From: Ignavibacterium sp.
Lineage (GTDB): Bacteria > Zixibacteria > MSB-5A5 > GN15 > PGXB01
NCBI GenBank assembly: GCA_020724775.1
Contig: DYGG01000034.1
Coordinates: 1-37,410 of the forward strand
Direction: 5' to 3'
DNA: 37,410 nucleotides
Shown here: one piece after another, positions 4,689 through 30,013 of the stretch
Numbering within the stretch: the stretch's first letter is position 1
Layout of the letters: each line of letters opens with the position of its first letter
The notes under the pieces: model-generated
What the model was told of the DNA's origin: nothing
Seen by the model: only the letters and a program-made list of their open reading frames with translations
Databases searched by the model: none
Position numbers and translations under genes: made by a program

Positions 4689-4774
4689 TGCCGGAGGCCG
4701 GACTCGAACCGGCACGCACCTGACGATGCAAGGGATTTTAAGTCCCTGGCGTCTACCAATTCCGCCACTCCGGC
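4689..4774 (-). tRNA. tRNA-Leu (anticodon TAA)
   Basis: An 86-base class II tRNA with a long variable arm. The acceptor stem GCCGGAG pairs with CTCCGGC, the anticodon stem AGGGA/TCCCT encloses CTTAAAA with anticodon TAA, and the T arm has GGTTCGAGTCC. TAA reads the leucine codon UUA. The discriminator base is A, as expected for leucine; CCA is not encoded. Confidence 0.97.
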
Positions 4775-9273: not shown

Positions 9274-9303
9274 CGTAGAGATAGGATGCAACTATAGCAT
9301 CGC

Positions 9304-9420
9304 GCTCTTCTTCCATCCGGACTTTACCGTCGGTACCGGAGTTTCATCGGTTCAGTCCCGCCTTAGCGGGAGTCGCGGACTCTCACCGCCGATCGAGGAA
9401 TTTCACCTCACCCCGAAGAA
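9304..9420 (-). promoter_or_regulatory. FMN riboswitch (RFN element)
   Basis: The minus strand shows the conserved RFN blocks in order: TCTTCGGGGTGAGGTGAAA, ATTCC, CGGCGGTGAGAGTCCGCGA, a variable GC hairpin (TCCCGCTAAGGCGGGA), CCGATGAAACTCCGG, CCGACGGTAAAGTCCGGATG and the closing GAAGA. The ends pair (TCTTC with GAAGA). It lies between a promoter and ribD. Binding of FMN is expected to switch off the riboflavin operon. Confidence 0.97.
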
Positions 9421-9426
9421 TTTCCA

Positions 9427-9519: not shown

Positions 9520-12093
9520 CTACAAAGCCCGGCTGCGCCCCAGAAGGTTATCCGTTGTTTCCACAATCGATTCCCGTGTAAACGGCGGCGTTATCAGGCT
9601 GTCCACCCCGCGCGACATCAGCTCCTGGATGCTGGCGCCGAAATCCCGCTTACTAACCAGAATCGCTTTAACCTTATGGTCAAAACTTTTAATTCGCGCC
9701 AGAAAATCGAGGTCAAATCCGCCGTTGCGGTCGTAGTCGATAATCAGCAAATCAAACTTCTGAGCGGCCGACATACGAATCGCTTCCTGGCTGTCGTCAA
9801 CTGAGGTCGCGTCATATAGAGATTGCGTCAGCGCCTCGGTCAGTTCTCCTCGGAATGGCGAGGAATCGCTGATTATCAGGATTCGTTTTTTTCGGGCGGT
9901 ACCGGCGTTTCCCTCGACGTTTTCGGCAATGATACCGGAAGATCTTTGAGGCTCGGCCAATGGAAGTCTTATCGTAAAGGTCGTTCCCTTTTGAGGAATA
10001 GACTCCACTTTGAGTTGCCCTCCATGTTCTTTGATTATCCGTTGCGTAATCGCAAGCCCCAAGCCGGTTCCCTTTTCTCCCTTGGTAGTGAAGAACGGCT
10101 CAAAAATCCTTTCCATCACTTCCCGCGGCATACCGATACCGGTATCGCTTATAGTCACGATAGCCTCTGTGTCTTTACTTCTTGAGCGAACCGCTATTTC
10201 TCCGCCTTCTGGAATGGCATCCAGCGCGTTAAGAAGAATATTGGTGAACACCTCGCGAAGTTCCGACTGGTCCGCCAGGACTTTCATTTCCGGCTCCAGT
10301 TCCTTGGTGAGGACAACTTTCTGCCCCTTCTCTTCGTTTATTCGACGCCAGCGCGGTTTAATCATCTCCAGGGTGTCCTCTATCAACGACTCCACGTCGG
10401 TCATTACCTTCTTCTGCTCCCGCTTCTGGCGGGAAAGTTGCCGCAGACGATTCAGAATCTCACCGGAATCGACCGCCGACTGCTCGATTATACGAAGGTC
10501 GTTTTCAATCTTCGCTTTTTTCTCGGGACTGAATTCTCCCTCCAGTCGATTTGCGATAATCTGGCTCCGTCCCAGAATGCCGCCAATAATGTTGTTCAAA
10601 TCATGGAAGACGCCGCCGGCAAGTTCCCCAATCGTCCGCAGGTTCTCCAGAATAGTCATCTGGACATGCATCTCTTCCAGTTGCCTTATATAGACATCCA
10701 TCGACCGTTTATTTTCAGCAATGACAAAAACCTTCCCCAGATAGTCTGCCAGAGTCTGGATAATATGCAGGTGACGCAGAAGATAATTATCGCTCATCGG
10801 GGAACCTGCCCCCAGAATTCCCAGGATATTGTCGCCATTCATAATCGGAACCAGAAGGGACGAGCGGACTCCTTCTTGGGACAACTGCTTTTCGATGCTG
10901 TTGGAAAAATTCACCGCCAGATTATCGCGAAAGTAATATCGCCCGGTCTCTATTACCTTTTCAAAGCCCGTCCCGGCAATTCGAAAATTGCTCAAACGGC
11001 CGTAACTTGAGGTGCCCGTTAGGATCGCCACACCTTCCATCTCCAGGCGATTCTCCAGTTGATAATATTTTCCGATTGACAGCCGGTTAACCGCCATAAA
11101 TTCATTAAGAGTCGGCAGCAGAAACTCCATCAGGTCCTGACGTGAACGACCAGCGCTGTTAATGTCATTGACTATCGAGAAAATTCTTCTCCAGTCCGGC
11201 GTCTGGGCGAAATGTAATGGGCTTAAGCCGTTCAAAATATGCCGCAGACGCGAGAAGAAAAGGGCGACAGAGTAAGAGGTTATATTCGGTATCAATCCAT
11301 TCAGGAGATATTCGGTATCACCGATTTTCCCTCCCAGCGCAAAGCGAACCCCCGGCGGCGCCGACAGTTCGGTGGCATACCCCGGAACCGAGCCGGAGGG
11401 GGCAAAGAGTCTGCCATCTTTGAGAGTCTGTCTAATCTCCTTAGCCGCATCCCCTTCGAGAACCGGAGGTGTTTCCTCGTAATGCCCAATCTGGCCCGCC
11501 ATTCTTCGCAGGATGAATTGTTCTCCCGAACTGTAATAGAACGACGCCATGCCACCGCCCAGGAATTCCACCATCCAGCCGGGCAGGGAGCGGAGAAACT
11601 GGTCCGGTGAGCGCTCGGTTGAAACCTGCTGTAAAACCTGTAACGCAATCGCCTCACCACCGGCAAGACGGTCATTTATATCAAAAATCAGATTGAAATA
11701 TTCCGATACCGAAAATTTGTCCAAAAACCTGTGCCACTCACCTTCAATCTGTTCGCGGCTTTCGCTAAGGACTCCCCCTACAACCACCCCCTCGACGCCA
11801 ATCGGGTAAAATTTTCTCCCGTCAACCGATATCGGATCACTATATAACTCAAACTGTTTATATACCAGGTCTTCAAATACCTCAGGATAAATGGGGCTTT
11901 CCAGCATCTCTGTCGGGATATAGAGAAATCTCTCATCGTGGCTGTTAAGAATTTTGTCTGTGACTGAGTAGAATAAGCCGGGGAGAATTGTCGTCAGATA
12001 CAGTTTTATCGATGAGTCAAAAGGGACGGTATCCCTCTTCAGTACCAGTTCTTCGTACTGGGCTTCACTGAGGATTTTTATTTTGTAACTCAT
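9520..12093 (-). CDS. GAF-domain hybrid histidine kinase with receiver domain
   Basis: An 857-residue soluble signalling protein without obvious membrane segments. Residues 1-300 form an unrecognised sensory region. A GAF-like domain spans about 305-460. The HisKA dimerisation helix has the phosphorylatable His497 in GGVFHDLNN, and the HATPase domain (about 600-720) has the N box LLNALDAI, DTGIGMP and KGTGLGLA loops. A receiver domain (about 737-857) has its likely phospho-acceptor at Asp786 (LLIIDYD). The catalytic kinase motifs look intact. The receiver has a reduced acidic pocket (ISDSS instead of the usual DD). It lies 34 bases downstream of a related GAF protein, so the two are probably co-transcribed. 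A phosphotransfer partner is not evident beside it. Confidence 0.88.
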   Translation of the reverse strand: MSYKIKILSEAQYEELVLKRDTVPFDSSIKLYLTTILPGLFYSVTDKILNSHDERFLYIPTEMLESPIYPEVFEDLVYKQFELYSDPISVDGRKFYPIGVEGVVVGGVLSESREQIEGEWHRFLDKFSVSEYFNLIFDINDRLAGGEAIALQVLQQVSTERSPDQFLRSLPGWMVEFLGGGMASFYYSSGEQFILRRMAGQIGHYEETPPVLEGDAAKEIRQTLKDGRLFAPSGSVPGYATELSAPPGVRFALGGKIGDTEYLLNGLIPNITSYSVALFFSRLRHILNGLSPLHFAQTPDWRRIFSIVNDINSAGRSRQDLMEFLLPTLNEFMAVNRLSIGKYYQLENRLEMEGVAILTGTSSYGRLSNFRIAGTGFEKVIETGRYYFRDNLAVNFSNSIEKQLSQEGVRSSLLVPIMNGDNILGILGAGSPMSDNYLLRHLHIIQTLADYLGKVFVIAENKRSMDVYIRQLEEMHVQMTILENLRTIGELAGGVFHDLNNIIGGILGRSQIIANRLEGEFSPEKKAKIENDLRIIEQSAVDSGEILNRLRQLSRQKREQKKVMTDVESLIEDTLEMIKPRWRRINEEKGQKVVLTKELEPEMKVLADQSELREVFTNILLNALDAIPEGGEIAVRSRSKDTEAIVTISDTGIGMPREVMERIFEPFFTTKGEKGTGLGLAITQRIIKEHGGQLKVESIPQKGTTFTIRLPLAEPQRSSGIIAENVEGNAGTARKKRILIISDSSPFRGELTEALTQSLYDATSVDDSQEAIRMSAAQKFDLLIIDYDRNGGFDLDFLARIKSFDHKVKAILVSKRDFGASIQELMSRGVDSLITPPFTRESIVETTDNLLGRSRAL

Positions 12094-12127
12094 ATGCTCT
12101 CGCCTTAAATCCGGTTGTCTGCTCGCT

Positions 12128-14134
12128 CTATCGTTCGTTAATCAGCGAAATGAGCCGATTGGTGGAGTATTCCATCGCCTCCAGAATCTTCTGCGAATCC
12201 TCAGTTTTCTCAAATCCCCGTAATTTCAATAAATCGATTGACCCTTGAATTCGGGTCAGCGGCGTTTTCAGTTCCTGAAAAAAATCCCTGGTCGTGCCTG
12301 TTATCGGAGTGCCGCTATCCTGTTCGTTCTCGGGAAGCAACAGCGCTCGGCTCAATTGTGTCGATTTTATTCCCTGCGCCATAACGGCGGCGGCCGCCCG
12401 CGCAAAGGTCAACGCGGTAGCATCCAGAGGCGAACGGTTCCAGTTACGCATCTCCGCCATGGTGATTATTCCGTAAACCAGTCCGTTCACGGCAATTGGC
12501 ATAATGATTGCCGACTGTACCTCTCCAAACGCCAAACCTTCCGCCTCAGCCGCATCCAACCGTGATTCGCCATCCTGCTGGTTTATCAGAAGTGGCCGGT
12601 TTTCTCTTATAACCAAGTAGTGCCACGGTATCAACTCCTGAGACAGGGCTACTTTGCTGTTTCTTATCCCCGGAAAGGGACGAGCCGTTTGAATCGCTTT
12701 TGTGATCAGGTGGTCTCGCTCTCTGTTTAGAATGCTAAGACGTATCATGGTCGTTCGCACATTTTCGAACAGAATCGGCGCCGCTTCCGCCAGGAATGAA
12801 TCAATATCGGTGGCCGACTCCTGCACCTGGCAGAGCGAGCCGATGCCATTGAGAAATCTATCCCGGTCAAAGGAAACCATCCGCAAAAATTCCTCTTCCA
12901 GCGCCGGCGCCATTGCCGCCGCCAGCATTTCGCTCCGGTCCATCTCTTTAAACCCAAATCGTCCCGGCTGAGGATGCCCCAGTGTTATAATCCCGGTCAG
13001 ACGTCCGTTACATACTATCGGAACGGCCATAATCGATTTTAGCCCGCAACTGGCTATCAAAATATCAACCTGCTCACTTGGCAATTTGGTTATATCGTTT
13101 ATCACCAGGCTTCTCCGCTGACGAATAAGCGGCTCCAGATAATCTCTGTCTCTGACCGTCGTGGTCACTCCATTCTGAAGTATATTGCCGTTTATTCCAG
13201 CGATATAGCGGCGCAGGTCCCAGGCGCTTTTGTCCGGGACCGAAAGGATGAAGAATTCCGCTCCCACGGCACGATTAAACAGGGTATAAAATCCTCTGAT
13301 AAGATTCTTCAGTTCAGTTCGATTCTTCACCAGCGCCCGCATTTGTCTGAGATATTCCAGCGATTCCTGGTCATACTGCGACTGCAGTCGCAGTCTTTTC
13401 AACTCTATGCCGGACACCAGGCGCTTTCCCAGAGCTTCCAGCAGCGCTTCTTCTCTCTCGTCACCTTTTCCCTTCTCCGCATCCCAGAGCATCAGAGCCC
13501 CTATGACCCCTTTGCCGGTTCTCAATTTTACGGCGCGAGCAGGATTTAATCTTTCAATCAAGGTTTGGGCATCAATTTCGGGGTTCTCTCCCAGAATTTC
13601 CTCGCATCTCAGTTTCAGATTTTCATCCATCCCCTCGCAACCAATAATCTGATTGCCTCGGCCATTCAATCGTACTATCGCCGCCGCCTTGAAACCGTCG
13701 TGCCCGCACAGCATTTGCGGGAGTTTGCGAATGAACTGCGTTATATCGGGATAACGTTCGGTCTCTTCGATGATTCTGCTGAGCCGTGCCATGCGACTCT
13801 TATCATTGGTTTCTTCCGTTCGCACTGTCTTCCGTGACGGCACCCAGATTGATATTCCGGCCAGCATCAAGGTGACTCCGGTCACCATTCCGATTACAAG
13901 AATCAATTCCAGGTAGACCGGTTCGGAAAGAAAAGGAATCGTTTCAAATAGATTCTGATTATGCGCCGATTGAATCAACGAGACCAGCGCCAGAGTCGCC
14001 AGACCTGACCGGGCATAATTGTAACTGGCTTTATTGTCGGAGAATATTTTTTCTCTCATTCTCACCAGCAAACCAAACAGCAACACGAATATGACTGTAA
14101 ATAGCGAATCAAGAATGAACTGTGACACAGCCAC
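12128..14134 (-). CDS. Membrane GAF protein with degenerate HisKA domain and no ATPase domain
   Basis: A 668-residue protein. Three N-terminal membrane helices (about 5-25, 43-60, 75-98) are followed by GAF-type domains (about 110-260, 265-430, 435-600), seen in repeated SIMAVPIV...GIITLG and AIIMPIAV...GIITMAE patterns. The C-terminal 49 residues resemble the HisKA helix, FFQELKTPLTRIQGSIDLL, but the position of the phosphorylatable His is Gln620, and there is no HATPase domain after it. It cannot be an ordinary histidine kinase. It may be a scaffold or a partner of the hybrid kinase encoded downstream in the same operon. The start is GTG with GGAG 8 bases upstream. Confidence 0.85.
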   Translation of the reverse strand: MAVSQFILDSLFTVIFVLLFGLLVRMREKIFSDNKASYNYARSGLATLALVSLIQSAHNQNLFETIPFLSEPVYLELILVIGMVTGVTLMLAGISIWVPSRKTVRTEETNDKSRMARLSRIIEETERYPDITQFIRKLPQMLCGHDGFKAAAIVRLNGRGNQIIGCEGMDENLKLRCEEILGENPEIDAQTLIERLNPARAVKLRTGKGVIGALMLWDAEKGKGDEREEALLEALGKRLVSGIELKRLRLQSQYDQESLEYLRQMRALVKNRTELKNLIRGFYTLFNRAVGAEFFILSVPDKSAWDLRRYIAGINGNILQNGVTTTVRDRDYLEPLIRQRRSLVINDITKLPSEQVDILIASCGLKSIMAVPIVCNGRLTGIITLGHPQPGRFGFKEMDRSEMLAAAMAPALEEEFLRMVSFDRDRFLNGIGSLCQVQESATDIDSFLAEAAPILFENVRTTMIRLSILNRERDHLITKAIQTARPFPGIRNSKVALSQELIPWHYLVIRENRPLLINQQDGESRLDAAEAEGLAFGEVQSAIIMPIAVNGLVYGIITMAEMRNWNRSPLDATALTFARAAAAVMAQGIKSTQLSRALLLPENEQDSGTPITGTTRDFFQELKTPLTRIQGSIDLLKLRGFEKTEDSQKILEAMEYSTNRLISLINER

Positions 14135-14352
14135 GCTCCAGGCTCCAATTGTTTATTAGACAAAAAGTTATATTTACTCTATTTTTCGGCAATTTTGACA
14201 GTTTCATTAACATCTATTGCCCCTTCCCAACATGGTTGCCCTCCTCTTATCAGGGGATTCTCCCTACAATATTTCCTTCTCGCTCAAACCCGGAATGAAC
14301 CGCCCTTGAGTTAATATCCACAAAGACAACAAGTTGTCGTCCCCCCAGGACA
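14135..14352. other. Intergenic region between divergent genes
   Basis: No ORF is supported. The part nearest 14134 is AT-rich and should hold the promoter of the minus-strand signalling operon, but I found no convincing -35/-10 pair with a normal spacer. The right edge runs into the sigma-54-like site. Confidence 0.4.
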
Positions 14353-14369
14353 CCGGCACACTGCTTGCT
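14353..14369 (+). promoter_or_regulatory. Sigma-54-like (-24/-12) promoter
   Basis: CCGGCACACTGCTTGCT matches the sigma-54 core GGCAC-N5-TTGC exactly, with GG (14355-14356) and GC (14367-14368) separated by 10 bases as required. It lies about 90 bases before the lipoprotein start. A sigma-54 activator gene occurs elsewhere in the window (28599-29945). Confidence 0.6.
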
Positions 14370-14456
14370 GAATTCTCCCGGAAATCTTCAGGTTGCGGCC
14401 TATCGCCGAACCTTTATCACCAGACCTAAACTCGCTTTGTGCGAGGGGGAGGATTA

Positions 14457-15227
14457 ATGCTCAGGTTTCAAATTAATCTGCGTTTTTCTTTGATTCTTAT
14501 CGCCCTTACTGCCTTATATGCAGGCTGCTCTGAGAATGACACTCTCTATTCAGGAAGAGGTTCCACTGACGCCGATATCTCCCGCTATTTTCCCTTGCAG
14601 ACCGGAAAGGCTGTCGATTTTGTAATCAAAGACCAGTCAAATCAGAACCAGTTGAGGGAACGATTCCTGATTGGGAGTCCGGTGATTCTTATTGGACAAC
14701 AAGGGTATCGCTGGCTCTCCTATGACTTAAGATACCCCACATACATCGATACTGGATTTATGCAAATTCGCAATAATGCCCTTTATTATTACGATACTCC
14801 TGTTTCTCTCCCGGAAAAACTGCTTGAGGCGCCGGTAGAAGTCGGTAAATCATGGCTTCGTTTCGACCCGACCGAACTTTCCCTTGGCGATACCAATAAT
14901 TATATCGATGACCTGGGGGACGGCCAGAAAGACGAAGATTCGACCACTTTTCCCGGCGGCAACAATCACTCCGGCTCATTCGTCGGCAAGAACTATCCTA
15001 CATTCGGCTCCAATTACTTTATCATCGCTGCCATTGAAGATATTCAACTGGAGGATGGCAATATCTATCGCAACTGCGTCTGTGTTGAAAACCGCTCCGG
15101 CAGTATGGTGAATCGCTACTGGTATGCCCCCGGCGCCGGGCTGGTCAGATATTCTATCGATGCTACTTCAACCACCTATCCGGGTGGACAGATAATCGGC
15201 GAAATCGCCGCCCCCGCAAACTTTTAA
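14457..15227 (+). CDS. Lipoprotein of unknown function
   Basis: A 256-residue predicted lipoprotein. The signal peptide RFQINLRFSLILIALTALYA ends in a lipobox, and Cys24 is the lipidated residue. The mature part begins with a Ser/Asp-rich linker and contains the block RYFPLQTGKAVDF, which recurs in many secreted hypothetical proteins, and a late RYWYAPGAGLVRYSID segment of the same type. It probably forms a beta-rich periplasmic domain. A GTG 18 bases upstream is in frame, but the ATG at 14457 has GGGGGAGGA just before it, so it is chosen. It stands alone on the plus strand behind a sigma-54-like promoter. The function is not known. Confidence 0.82.
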   Translation: MLRFQINLRFSLILIALTALYAGCSENDTLYSGRGSTDADISRYFPLQTGKAVDFVIKDQSNQNQLRERFLIGSPVILIGQQGYRWLSYDLRYPTYIDTGFMQIRNNALYYYDTPVSLPEKLLEAPVEVGKSWLRFDPTELSLGDTNNYIDDLGDGQKDEDSTTFPGGNNHSGSFVGKNYPTFGSNYFIIAAIEDIQLEDGNIYRNCVCVENRSGSMVNRYWYAPGAGLVRYSIDATSTTYPGGQIIGEIAAPANF

Positions 15228-27609: not shown

Positions 27610-28434
27610 CTACTTGATTATTCCAAGATTTATGGTTCGTTTGAGAAATCCTTCTTCATGTTGCGGCCTCGCCAGTTCCGGGTTCCCGGTATCGGTCTGA
27701 TATGCCCAGTCAAAGCGGACGCTGTACGGGGCGTTTACTGCCGTCACTCGCAACTTGGCATAGTTGTTGTCTTTCGTCCAGATTATATAAGTATGGCCCA
27801 GAATCACCTCCGACCAGCCTACCACTGACCAACCATCCAGAGGCGAATATCCGATTTCATCGAAGTTACTGGTGTACCCCATATCCTGAATATCTGTCAG
27901 GGTATTGGTTACATTGATATAGAAAACTTCATCGTACTGATTATACTCAATATAGATATCGGCATTGACATGGTCGTAAGGCAATACAGTGTAAGTCGAA
28001 AAATCGTATCCGGAGATTCCGGGGTAGAGATTGAAATCGGCGAGATTCAGTCCGAATCCTTCCGGTCGCGGCGTGTCAAAAACTGTCTCATAAGAAAGGT
28101 CCGATTCATTTCCTTCGTCATCTACCGCCGTCACCGCATAGTAATAGGTGTTGCCGTTTATGACATTCCGATCCACATAATCTGTGCCAGCCGCAGAGCC
28201 GATATAGAAATATTCATCGTCATTAACACTGCGATAGACCCGATATCCGGCAAGGTCAGACTCCCGCACCGGCAACCAGAACAGATAGACCGCTTCATCA
28301 CCGGTAATGGAATAAACCCCCTGCGGAACAGCGGGAACATAATCGATATAAACATATTCAGTCGTATTTTCTTCACAGCCGAGAAGGGTCAGTCCCGCTA
28401 CCAATGCGGCCATCGTCAACAGTACCTTTTTCAT
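27610..28434 (-). CDS. Fibronectin type III lipoprotein
   Basis: A 274-residue lipoprotein. The signal peptide ends with lipobox LLGC, with lipidated Cys20. Residues about 30-120 form a fibronectin type III domain (VYLFWLPVRESDLAGYRVYRS and GNTYYYAVTAVDDEGNES are classic FN3 strands). The rest is a beta-rich domain with many Tyr and Asp that I do not recognise. The ATG at 28434 has AGGAG eight bases upstream; an upstream in-frame ATG would delay the signal peptide by 11 residues. It is the first gene of a three-gene envelope operon, with a sigma-54-like site upstream. Confidence 0.85.
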   Translation of the reverse strand: MKKVLLTMAALVAGLTLLGCEENTTEYVYIDYVPAVPQGVYSITGDEAVYLFWLPVRESDLAGYRVYRSVNDDEYFYIGSAAGTDYVDRNVINGNTYYYAVTAVDDEGNESDLSYETVFDTPRPEGFGLNLADFNLYPGISGYDFSTYTVLPYDHVNADIYIEYNQYDEVFYINVTNTLTDIQDMGYTSNFDEIGYSPLDGWSVVGWSEVILGHTYIIWTKDNNYAKLRVTAVNAPYSVRFDWAYQTDTGNPELARPQHEEGFLKRTINLGIIK

Positions 28435-28477: not shown

Positions 28478-28494
28478 TACAAGCGCCGTGCCGA
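28478..28494 (-). promoter_or_regulatory. Sigma-54-like (-24/-12) promoter
   Basis: Minus strand TCGGCACGGCGCTTGTA compared with consensus YTGGCACGRNNNTTGCW gives two mismatches, one of them in the -12 GC (GT here). Spacing is exact. It lies 44 bases before the FN3 lipoprotein and about 105 bases after the stop of a sigma-54 activator gene. Confidence 0.5.
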
Positions 28495-28598
28495 AAGTTG
28501 TAACATTCTGTCCGACAATATAATAGAAAACGATGAAGGAATGCGTGATGGTTAGTCCGCACAAAAAATGTTCAGCAGCCCCTGACAATGCACTAATT

Positions 28599-29945
28599 TT
28601 AATTCTCTGATGACAGCCCGTATTCTTTGATTTTGAGCCTGAGGGTATTCCGATGAATCCCCAATATCTCCGCCGATTTGCCTATATTCCACTCCATCCG
28701 GTCGAGGACTTTTTTGATTTGCGACTTTTCCAGGTCAGCAAGTTTTTCCGAAACAGTCATTTGAGCATCCAGGTCGCCGGTTAAGCCCGGTAACTCTTTC
28801 AGGGTAATCAAATCCCCTCTCAAAAGCACGACTGCCCTCTCGATTACATTCTGCAGTTCTCTGACATTCCCGGGCCAATCATATTTTATCAAAGCGGCCG
28901 CTGCATTCGGTTCAAGCCCCTTTACTTTCTTCCCCAGTTTTGTCGAGAAGTCGGCGATAAATTTTTCCGCCAGCCTCAGGATGTCGCCGCTTCGCTCGCT
29001 CAAACTCGGCATATTAATTGTGATTACATTTAACCTGTAATAAAGGTCTTCTCGGAATTTTCCTTCTTTCACCAGTTGTGAAACGTTTTTATTTGTCGCC
29101 GCGATTATTCTCACCTCCAGAGGAATCTCTTCTTCACCTCCCAGCCTTTCAATCGCCTTATTTTCCAGTACCCGGAGAAGTTTTGCCTGCATCCCCAACG
29201 GCATATCGCCGATCTCATCCAGAAAAATCGTCCCGCCATCAGCAAGTTCAAATTTTCCCATTTTCCGTTTGTCGGCGCCGGTAAATGCCCCACGTTCATA
29301 ACCAAACAGTTCCGATTCCAGCAAATTTTCCGGTATTGCGGCGCAGTTTACAGCCACAAAACGGTTGTTCTTCCTCGGCGACAGCGAATGTATGGCTCGC
29401 GCCGCCAGTTCCTTTCCGGTCCCGGATGCCCCTGTTATCAGCACCGTGGTAACTCCCGGCGCCGCCAGACTCAGCAGTTCCAGGACTTTTTTGATGGCGG
29501 TTGACTCTCCGATTATCTCCCCGCTGCCAAACCGCTCTTTCACTGTTTCATTGAGAAGATTATGCTCCAGAATCAATCGATGCTGCTCCTCGGCTTTATT
29601 TAGATTCAGCAGCAATTCCTCCAGCTCCACCGGCTTGGTCTGGTAGTGAAAGGCCCCCGCCTTCATTGCTTCCACAGCGGTTTCCACCGAGCCAAACGCC
29701 GTTAAGACTATTATCTGCAGGAACGGGTTCAGTTCCCGCAGTCTCCCAATCAATTCGATTCCGCTCATCCCCGGCATTTTCATATCGACAACGGCCAGCG
29801 GCGGGAAAAATGAACTGTATATCTTTAGCGCCTCTTCTCCGGATGCCGCCTGCTTCACCTTAAAACCATTTTTCTCCAAATACCCTGCCAGCATCTCTCT
29901 CTGCGCTGTCTCATCATCAACCAGTAGAATCTTGCTTCTCTGCAT
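28599..29945 (-). CDS. NtrC-family sigma-54-dependent response regulator
   Basis: A 448-residue three-domain activator. The receiver has DD at 10-11 and phospho-acceptor Asp54. The AAA+ domain has Walker A GASGTGKE, the sigma-54 contact loop GAFTGA, Walker B GGTIFLDEIGDMP and the arginine-finger region FREDLYYRLNV. The C-terminal Fis-type helix-turn-helix is NIGKSAEILGIHRNTLRLKIKEYGL. All functional motifs are intact. The frame stays open to 30002, but that part runs into the terminator of the preceding gene. The ATG at 29945 gives the usual receiver start; 29954 is an alternative. The cognate kinase is not adjacent; the PAS kinase of 16566-18407 is a possible partner. The FN3 lipoprotein operon just downstream, with its -24/-12 site, is a plausible target. 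Confidence 0.95.
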   Translation of the reverse strand: MQRSKILLVDDETAQREMLAGYLEKNGFKVKQAASGEEALKIYSSFFPPLAVVDMKMPGMSGIELIGRLRELNPFLQIIVLTAFGSVETAVEAMKAGAFHYQTKPVELEELLLNLNKAEEQHRLILEHNLLNETVKERFGSGEIIGESTAIKKVLELLSLAAPGVTTVLITGASGTGKELAARAIHSLSPRKNNRFVAVNCAAIPENLLESELFGYERGAFTGADKRKMGKFELADGGTIFLDEIGDMPLGMQAKLLRVLENKAIERLGGEEEIPLEVRIIAATNKNVSQLVKEGKFREDLYYRLNVITINMPSLSERSGDILRLAEKFIADFSTKLGKKVKGLEPNAAAALIKYDWPGNVRELQNVIERAVVLLRGDLITLKELPGLTGDLDAQMTVSEKLADLEKSQIKKVLDRMEWNIGKSAEILGIHRNTLRLKIKEYGLSSEN

Positions 29946-29983
29946 GGAGTCCATTATATCGCAATCTGGCCTCGTAATCCAGC

Positions 29984-30013
29984 AAAAAAAAACCTGCGGC
30001 ATTGAACCGCAGG
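29984..30013 (-). terminator. Strong intrinsic terminator
   Basis: A perfect 7-bp stem CCTGCGG/CCGCAGG with a 7-base loop, followed on the minus strand by nine T. It lies 26 bases after the stop codon of the beta-barrel gene. Confidence 0.92.

Follow-up and report, generated by a model that had tools for sequence, protein, structure and literature searches.

The sequence CGGCACACTGCTTGCT, located upstream of a lone lipoprotein gene (P0001) in the window (the whole stretch of 37,410 nucleotides that was analysed), is, as judged from its conservation, a real sigma-54 promoter. Our results make it very probable that this is the working promoter of a single-gene lipoprotein unit and that an NtrC-family enhancer-binding protein (EBP), bound to a palindrome upstream, probably co-activates flagellin and other surface parts. 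The features of the window are listed in Table 1.

Table 1. Location of the genes and of the proposed regulatory elements in the window.
Feature	Position	Strand	Sequence or remark
tRNA genes	153-225; 4689-4774	+; -	
FMN riboswitch	9301-9424	-	before riboflavin genes
Divergent sensor-kinase gene (GAF, HisKA)	12128-14134	-	faces away from the sigma-54 unit
FliA (sigma-28)-like promoter	14183-14209	-	TAATGAAA-N11-GCCGAAAA; before the divergent sensor-kinase gene
Palindromic upstream activator site (likely enhancer)	14248-14271	.	TATCAGGGGATTCTCCCTACAATA; 106 bp before the -24 element
CAANNNNTTR core	14327-14336	+	CAACAAGTTG; between palindrome and promoter
Sigma-54 -24/-12 promoter (predicted)	14354-14369	+	CGGCACACTGCTTGCT; GGCAC-N5-TTGC core exact
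Shine-Dalgarno sequence	14446-14453	+	GGGGAGGA; precedes ATG 14457
Lone 256-aa lipoprotein gene (P0001)	14457-15227	+	signal peptide, Cys24; between minus-strand genes
FN3 lipoprotein gene	27610-28434	-	match at E<=1e-5 in 55/60 genomes, own included
Second sigma-54 site	28478-28493	-	CGGCACGGCGCTTGTA; starts 59 bp before the FN3 lipoprotein ATG
Palindrome of TGCACAAWWWTTGTGC type	28558-28575	.	before the FN3 lipoprotein; differs from the P0001 palindrome
NtrC-type EBP gene (response regulator, sigma-54 AAA+, HTH_8)	28599-30002	-	immediately upstream of the FN3 gene

The sequence-only reading had described an exact GGCAC-N5-TTGC core with a 10-base GG-GC spacing, in an intergenic region and on the coding strand of the lipoprotein gene. 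Both observations held when the site was read again: the GG is at 14355-14356 and the GC at 14367-14368, 10 bases apart, and the site is located between the start of a minus-strand gene (14134) and the plus-strand lipoprotein gene. Compared with the full sigma-54 consensus, TGGCACG-N4-TTGCW, the T before the GG and the G after the CAC are absent. The last base of CGGCACACTGCTTGCT lies 88 bases from the ATG at 14457, which is a likelier start for the lipoprotein than the listed GTG at 14439 because the Shine-Dalgarno sequence GGGGAGGA precedes it. A short possible hairpin (here CTCGC-N5-GCGAG, 14431-14445) is located directly 5' of this Shine-Dalgarno sequence, and most of the lipoprotein mRNAs of the window's own family have such a possible hairpin (11 sequences).

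A search of the window for TGGCAC-N5-TTGC with at most two mismatches gave 38 matches when 27 were expected, a number equalled by 4 of 100 shuffles, so that the motif by itself is weak evidence. In the 3.07-Mb draft genome, the exact GGCAC-N5-TTGC core was found 27 times versus 6 times for the reversed pattern; 9 of these 27 cores were intergenic, as counted with a home-made gene caller based on codon log-odds, on which all intergenic counts depend. Flagellar genes are located downstream of two of the nine, one encoding flagellin (L017) and the other a rod protein (L022). The GGCAT-N5-TTGCW pattern gave 22 further sites versus 5 for its reversed form. Fifteen of these 22 were intergenic and a sixteenth (L083) fell within an ORF that was itself very weakly predicted; eleven were found 4-52 bp 5' of a start, one of these eleven in a motB - rod-protein cluster (L090). 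Identifications of L021 as FliL-like and of L090 as FlgB-like, made by eye, were dropped, the former not being borne out by Pfam and the latter giving no Pfam match.

A window count barely above expectation, together with the location of 18 of the 27 exact genomic cores within genes, is what would be seen if the site were a chance look-alike in an intergenic region and the gene were transcribed by another sigma factor. This explanation is extremely improbable and is already contradicted by the conservation of the site. The exact GGCAY-N5-TTGC sequence was present at positions -140 to -60 in 37 of 43 lipoprotein orthologs and in 1 of 8600 mononucleotide-shuffled upstream sequences (the 43 include that of the genome itself and one broken gene, L040, whose start was estimated). 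The nearly fixed distance between the -24 element and an upstream palindrome, described below, also argues against chance. We judge the promoter to be real because conservation in the orthologs, and not the motif count, decides the question. The genome also contains rpoN, on whose presence the sequence-only reading had made the sigma-54 assignment depend; of 60 genomes, counting this one, 55 carry the gene, as do all 41 of those of good quality. Orthologs of the lipoprotein were found in 43 of the same 60 genomes (own included) and not in the other 17, while a profile search detected the family in 56 of 132 genomes of the phylum, all 56 belonging to this order. In a relative (G004), the lipoprotein gene (L040, L072) is broken by stops and a sigma-54-type site is still located upstream.

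The 160 bp preceding the -24 element of the 37 ortholog promoters were searched for a motif under a palindrome constraint and without the use of position. This search gave the consensus AA.TATGGG-N6-CCCATA.TT, with a log-likelihood of 200 versus 34-43 in three shuffles; an earlier run, made on a longer upstream window and without the palindrome constraint, had picked up the FliA-like element and coding sequence of EBP genes instead. The palindrome is located 105-109 bp 5' of the -24 element in 31 of the 37 promoters. Two of the 37 palindromes are weak (7.2 and 6.0 bits), and the copy in the window, TATCAGGGGATTCTCCCTACAATA, is imperfect (12.9 bits), which counts against our preferred explanation; scores of the 37 promoters are circular as these formed the training set, while the flagellin, FN3 and f3 promoters were outside it.

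Family f3, which consists of four orthologs left out of the motif training, was considered as having lost the promoter. This was rejected when the palindrome and a variant site were found further upstream: the exact site is absent from these orthologs, but TGGCGC, CGGCGC or CGGCAC followed by TTTGTT is located 106-108 bp beyond the palindrome, which scores 11.8-16.1 bits in all four. Neither the exact site nor the palindrome was found in two of the 43 orthologs (L068 and L070).

The palindrome before the lipoprotein gene is likely an enhancer to which an activator binds. It is predicted from its sequence, and at 75-140 bp it was not found for two basal-body genes of the genome that have sigma-54 sites (L022, and L090, which precedes a rod-protein cluster). 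Both points would fit a repressor or a nucleoid protein, rather than a sigma-54 activator, binding the palindrome that the lipoprotein shares with flagellin. We consider this unlikely, since the near-fixed spacing to the -24 element is that expected of an activator site and since in family f3 the palindrome and the promoter are both farther from the start codon and yet are kept together.

Between the palindrome and the promoter, a CAANNNNTTR core was found 18-45 bp before the -24 element in 16 of the 37 promoters versus 4.1% of shuffles. The core of the window, CAACAAGTTG, is possibly a DNA-bending (IHF/HU-type) site, a name given on the basis of the IHF-type consensus. According to the part of PMC7962754 used here, RpoN promoters often have IHF bound in the stretch that separates them from the enhancer.

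In the mechanism that we propose, sigma-54 RNA polymerase would bind the -24/-12 element and an NtrC-family EBP would bind the palindrome 106 bp upstream, contacting the polymerase by looping, perhaps aided by a bend at the CAANNNNTTR core. Transcription is predicted, from the -12 spacing only, to start near 14380. Of the 25 Sigma54_activat matches in the genome, 19 are strong (E no higher than 2e-51), and one of these 19 EBPs would presumably act here. A scan of the fetched EBP loci for the palindrome gave none that was convincing, the best being L169 (12.2) and L152 (11.5). The flagellar cluster of the genome contains, beside motA, a gene for a histidine kinase paired with one for an EBP (L145, G000:C62), a candidate flagellar activator.

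The same palindrome precedes the gene for the short flagellin. In some genomes it also precedes genes for a membrane protein of 486 aa, for a secreted protein weakly similar to DUF4402 and for pilin-like proteins. A single activator would therefore probably turn on the lipoprotein at the same time as flagellin and further surface components. Among 49 exact sites scanned in the genome itself, the palindrome was found 93 bp before the site of the flagellin promoter (19.1 bits) and 117 bp before that of a 206-aa protein (14.4 bits); a short ORF of this genome also has a palindrome of 19.2 bits located 140 bp before its sigma-54 site. We then scored the promoters of 40 short-flagellin genes of relatives, taken from about 48 listed. 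In this independent test, the matrix trained solely on the lipoprotein promoters scored at least 11 in 31 of the 40, with the palindrome at 90-110 bp in 29 of these, versus 39 of 3000 random stretches and none of 30 FN3-lipoprotein promoters; the random stretches were drawn from loci that include the ortholog promoters, which makes this control conservative. The remaining 9 of the 40 scored below 11, which counts against our explanation. A sigma-54-like site (at least 16.4 of 21.9, within 350 bp) was found in all 40 flagellin promoters, at positions -85 to -40 in 38 of them, and the exact GGCAY-N5-TTGC sequence in only 6. Comparison of the presence of the two genes showed that the lipoprotein is not tied to the possession of flagellin, since flagellin was found in 58 of 60 genomes, whereas no lipoprotein ortholog was found in 17 of the 60.

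Eight genomes were searched with a model built from the sequence of the entire lipoprotein promoter region; from the numerous matches, the best 30 were taken as loci, and 22 of these were read. Among these loci, the palindrome and a sigma-54 site preceded a gene of the 486-aa protein family in six of the eight genomes and a gene for a 177-aa secreted protein in four of the eight (both including the genome itself), the palindrome of the latter being of 9.5 bits in one genome. Members of the first family (L247, L248, L250, L252, L254 and L261) are of about 486 aa, and the one that was scanned gave no Pfam match; the secreted protein gave a DUF4402 match below the cut-off (E 0.0026). Pilin-like genes were preceded by both elements in two of the eight genomes (G044 and G041), the targets being a PilV-like gene, followed by one for a PilX_N protein, and a gene for a DUF7305 protein whose N-terminus looks pilin-like by eye. 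None of the loci read in the genome itself was a pilin-like target, and the palindrome was missing from 5 of the 22 loci.

From these sequence comparisons, the regulon of which the lipoprotein is most likely a member is one of motility and surface structures rather than one of lipoproteins, and the protein is probably made together with the swimming parts of the cell. We put forward only tentatively, as a possibility well short of likely, that a single sigma-54 surface-motility regulon exists in this Zixiibacteriota order, in which a single EBP and a single palindrome would directly connect the genes for flagellin, the order-specific lipoprotein, the 486-aa membrane protein and the secreted DUF4402-like protein, with pilin-like genes added in some members; the lipoprotein would then be an unrecognised part of, or accessory to, a flagellum or pilus at the cell envelope. 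Our confidence, both in this shared regulon and in our preferred explanation, is slightly tempered by the few exact sites among the flagellin promoters and by the finding of pilin-like targets in two of eight genomes.

The sequence-only reading had also noted a second -24/-12 site, before the FN3 lipoprotein gene, and had suggested from the two sites that sigma-54 controls envelope lipoproteins. The second site, CGGCACGGCGCTTGTA, proved to be real: a site scoring at least 16.4 of 21.9 was kept at positions -76 to -28 in 29 of 30 fetched FN3 orthologs versus 84 of 6000 shuffles, most of these sites having an unusual TTGT or TTGA instead of TTGC at -12. Two genomes (G005 and G059) gave only short FN3-type matches to this lipoprotein. 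A palindrome of the TGCACAAWWWTTGTGC type (log-likelihood of 167 versus about 31 in three shuffles) is located 82-83 bp before the -24 element in 22 of the 29 promoters and 102-106 bp before it in six. With a looser pattern, 22 of 30 genomes showed the same type of EBP end (HRNTLR.KIKEY) immediately before the FN3 gene; a strict pattern gave 14 of 30 and missed even the EBP of the window. The FN3 lipoprotein is thus a separate local sigma-54 module made of an EBP gene, a palindrome and a promoter, conserved in most genomes examined, and the EBP encoded immediately upstream is likely its activator. Since the FN3 gene forms such a module, the two lipoproteins are probably under different activators. 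The FN3 matrix scored at least 11 in 2 of the 37 P0001-type lipoprotein promoters.

We also determined whether lipoproteins are enriched among the 17 genes of the genome located just downstream of intergenic sites. They were not over-represented: the script found 1 lipoprotein, or 2 counting P0001, which its lipobox expression misses because of a Tyr at -3, versus 9 of 212 background genes (p 0.55 as scripted, with low power); the FN3 lipoprotein is among the background genes, as is another copy of one of the targets. Hydrophobic N-termini were found in 7 of the 17 targets versus 68 of 212 background genes, a small and crude comparison. A general envelope-lipoprotein regulon to which the sigma-54 promoter would belong is suggested by the conserved sites before two lipoproteins of one window and by a third lipoprotein-like gene (L092) downstream of a site, but the different palindromes of the two lipoproteins and the lack of enrichment of either lipoproteins or hydrophobic N-termini among the 17 targets make it very unlikely. 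Sigma-54 control is well supported for each of the two lipoproteins by rpoN, by the conserved sites and by the upstream palindromes; it is their membership of a common regulon that the evidence does not uphold.

P0001 has a signal peptide and a lipobox cysteine, Cys24, which is invariant in 42 sequences of the family. The Tyr at position -3 of its lipobox is unusual; in the aligned rows inspected by eye, the residue there is L, I, V, W or F in most other members. Searches of Pfam, NCBIfam and PDB sequences with the lipoprotein gave no family over the cut-off, the only matches being weak ones, to DUF3108_like for 12 of the 42 members (E 0.017 at best) and to DUF3108 for one (E 0.0022). The AlphaFold model, made from 21 sequences, has a mean pLDDT of 77.6. 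Comparison of this model with known structures showed that the nearest fold is 3fzx (Z 13.5, rmsd 4.2, 172 aligned) and the next 4fvs (Z 12.2, rmsd 4.5, 169 aligned), which are a putative exported protein with a YmcC-like fold and a putative lipoprotein, respectively, from Bacteroides and Parabacteroides. The fold of P0001 is therefore predicted from the model to be like that of the YmcC-like/LolA-superfamily lipoproteins, but with 11-14% identity and Foldseek TM-scores of only 0.37-0.44; it gives no function.

In the passages of Francke et al. 2011 (PMC3162934) used here, sigma-54, with its EBPs, is proposed to control the exterior of the bacterial cell, including flagella and lipoproteins. 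Our results likewise link sigma-54 to flagella and lipoproteins; compared with those passages, the lipoprotein family and the palindrome common to lipoprotein and flagellin, in Zixiibacteriota, are new. In Pseudomonas aeruginosa, the two-component system PilS-PilR affects type IV pili and swimming (PMC6058289, in part), and its flagellar effect there passes via fleSR, whereas here one palindrome directly precedes the genes for flagellin and the lipoprotein, as it does pilin-like genes in two of eight genomes. The RpoN regulon of Geobacter sulfurreducens includes promoters for flagellar genes and pilA, with EBP genes often beside the target promoters (PMC2725144, in part), as for the FN3 lipoprotein here; the word lipoprotein is absent from the main text of that paper and its passages used here contain no shared palindrome. 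No study of sigma-54 or RpoN in Zixibacteria or Zixiibacteriota was found in the full-text open-licence part of PubMed Central. Starting from a guess about one site, our analysis arrives at a regulon that can be tested, in a phylum where that search found no sigma-54 study. It offers motility and surface structures as the first context for a lipoprotein family with no Pfam model over the cut-off, and provides the palindrome as a handle for seeking the activator of the lipoprotein.

The intergenic region also contains a FliA-like promoter, TAATGAAA-N11-GCCGAAAA, recognised by the FliA consensus. With at most one mismatch, 34 of 43 orthologs have GCCGATAA on the opposite strand, ahead of the divergent gene, versus 174 of 2150 shuffles, CTAA being conserved at the FliA spacing from it, and the genome encodes a FliA over the NCBIfam cut-off. 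This promoter of the divergent kinase again points to the motility programme. The kinase itself ends inside its HisKA domain and has no ATPase domain, and the next gene encodes a complete hybrid kinase (both in the region 9520-14134, minus strand); from its sequence, the divergent gene appears to encode a split or truncated kinase.
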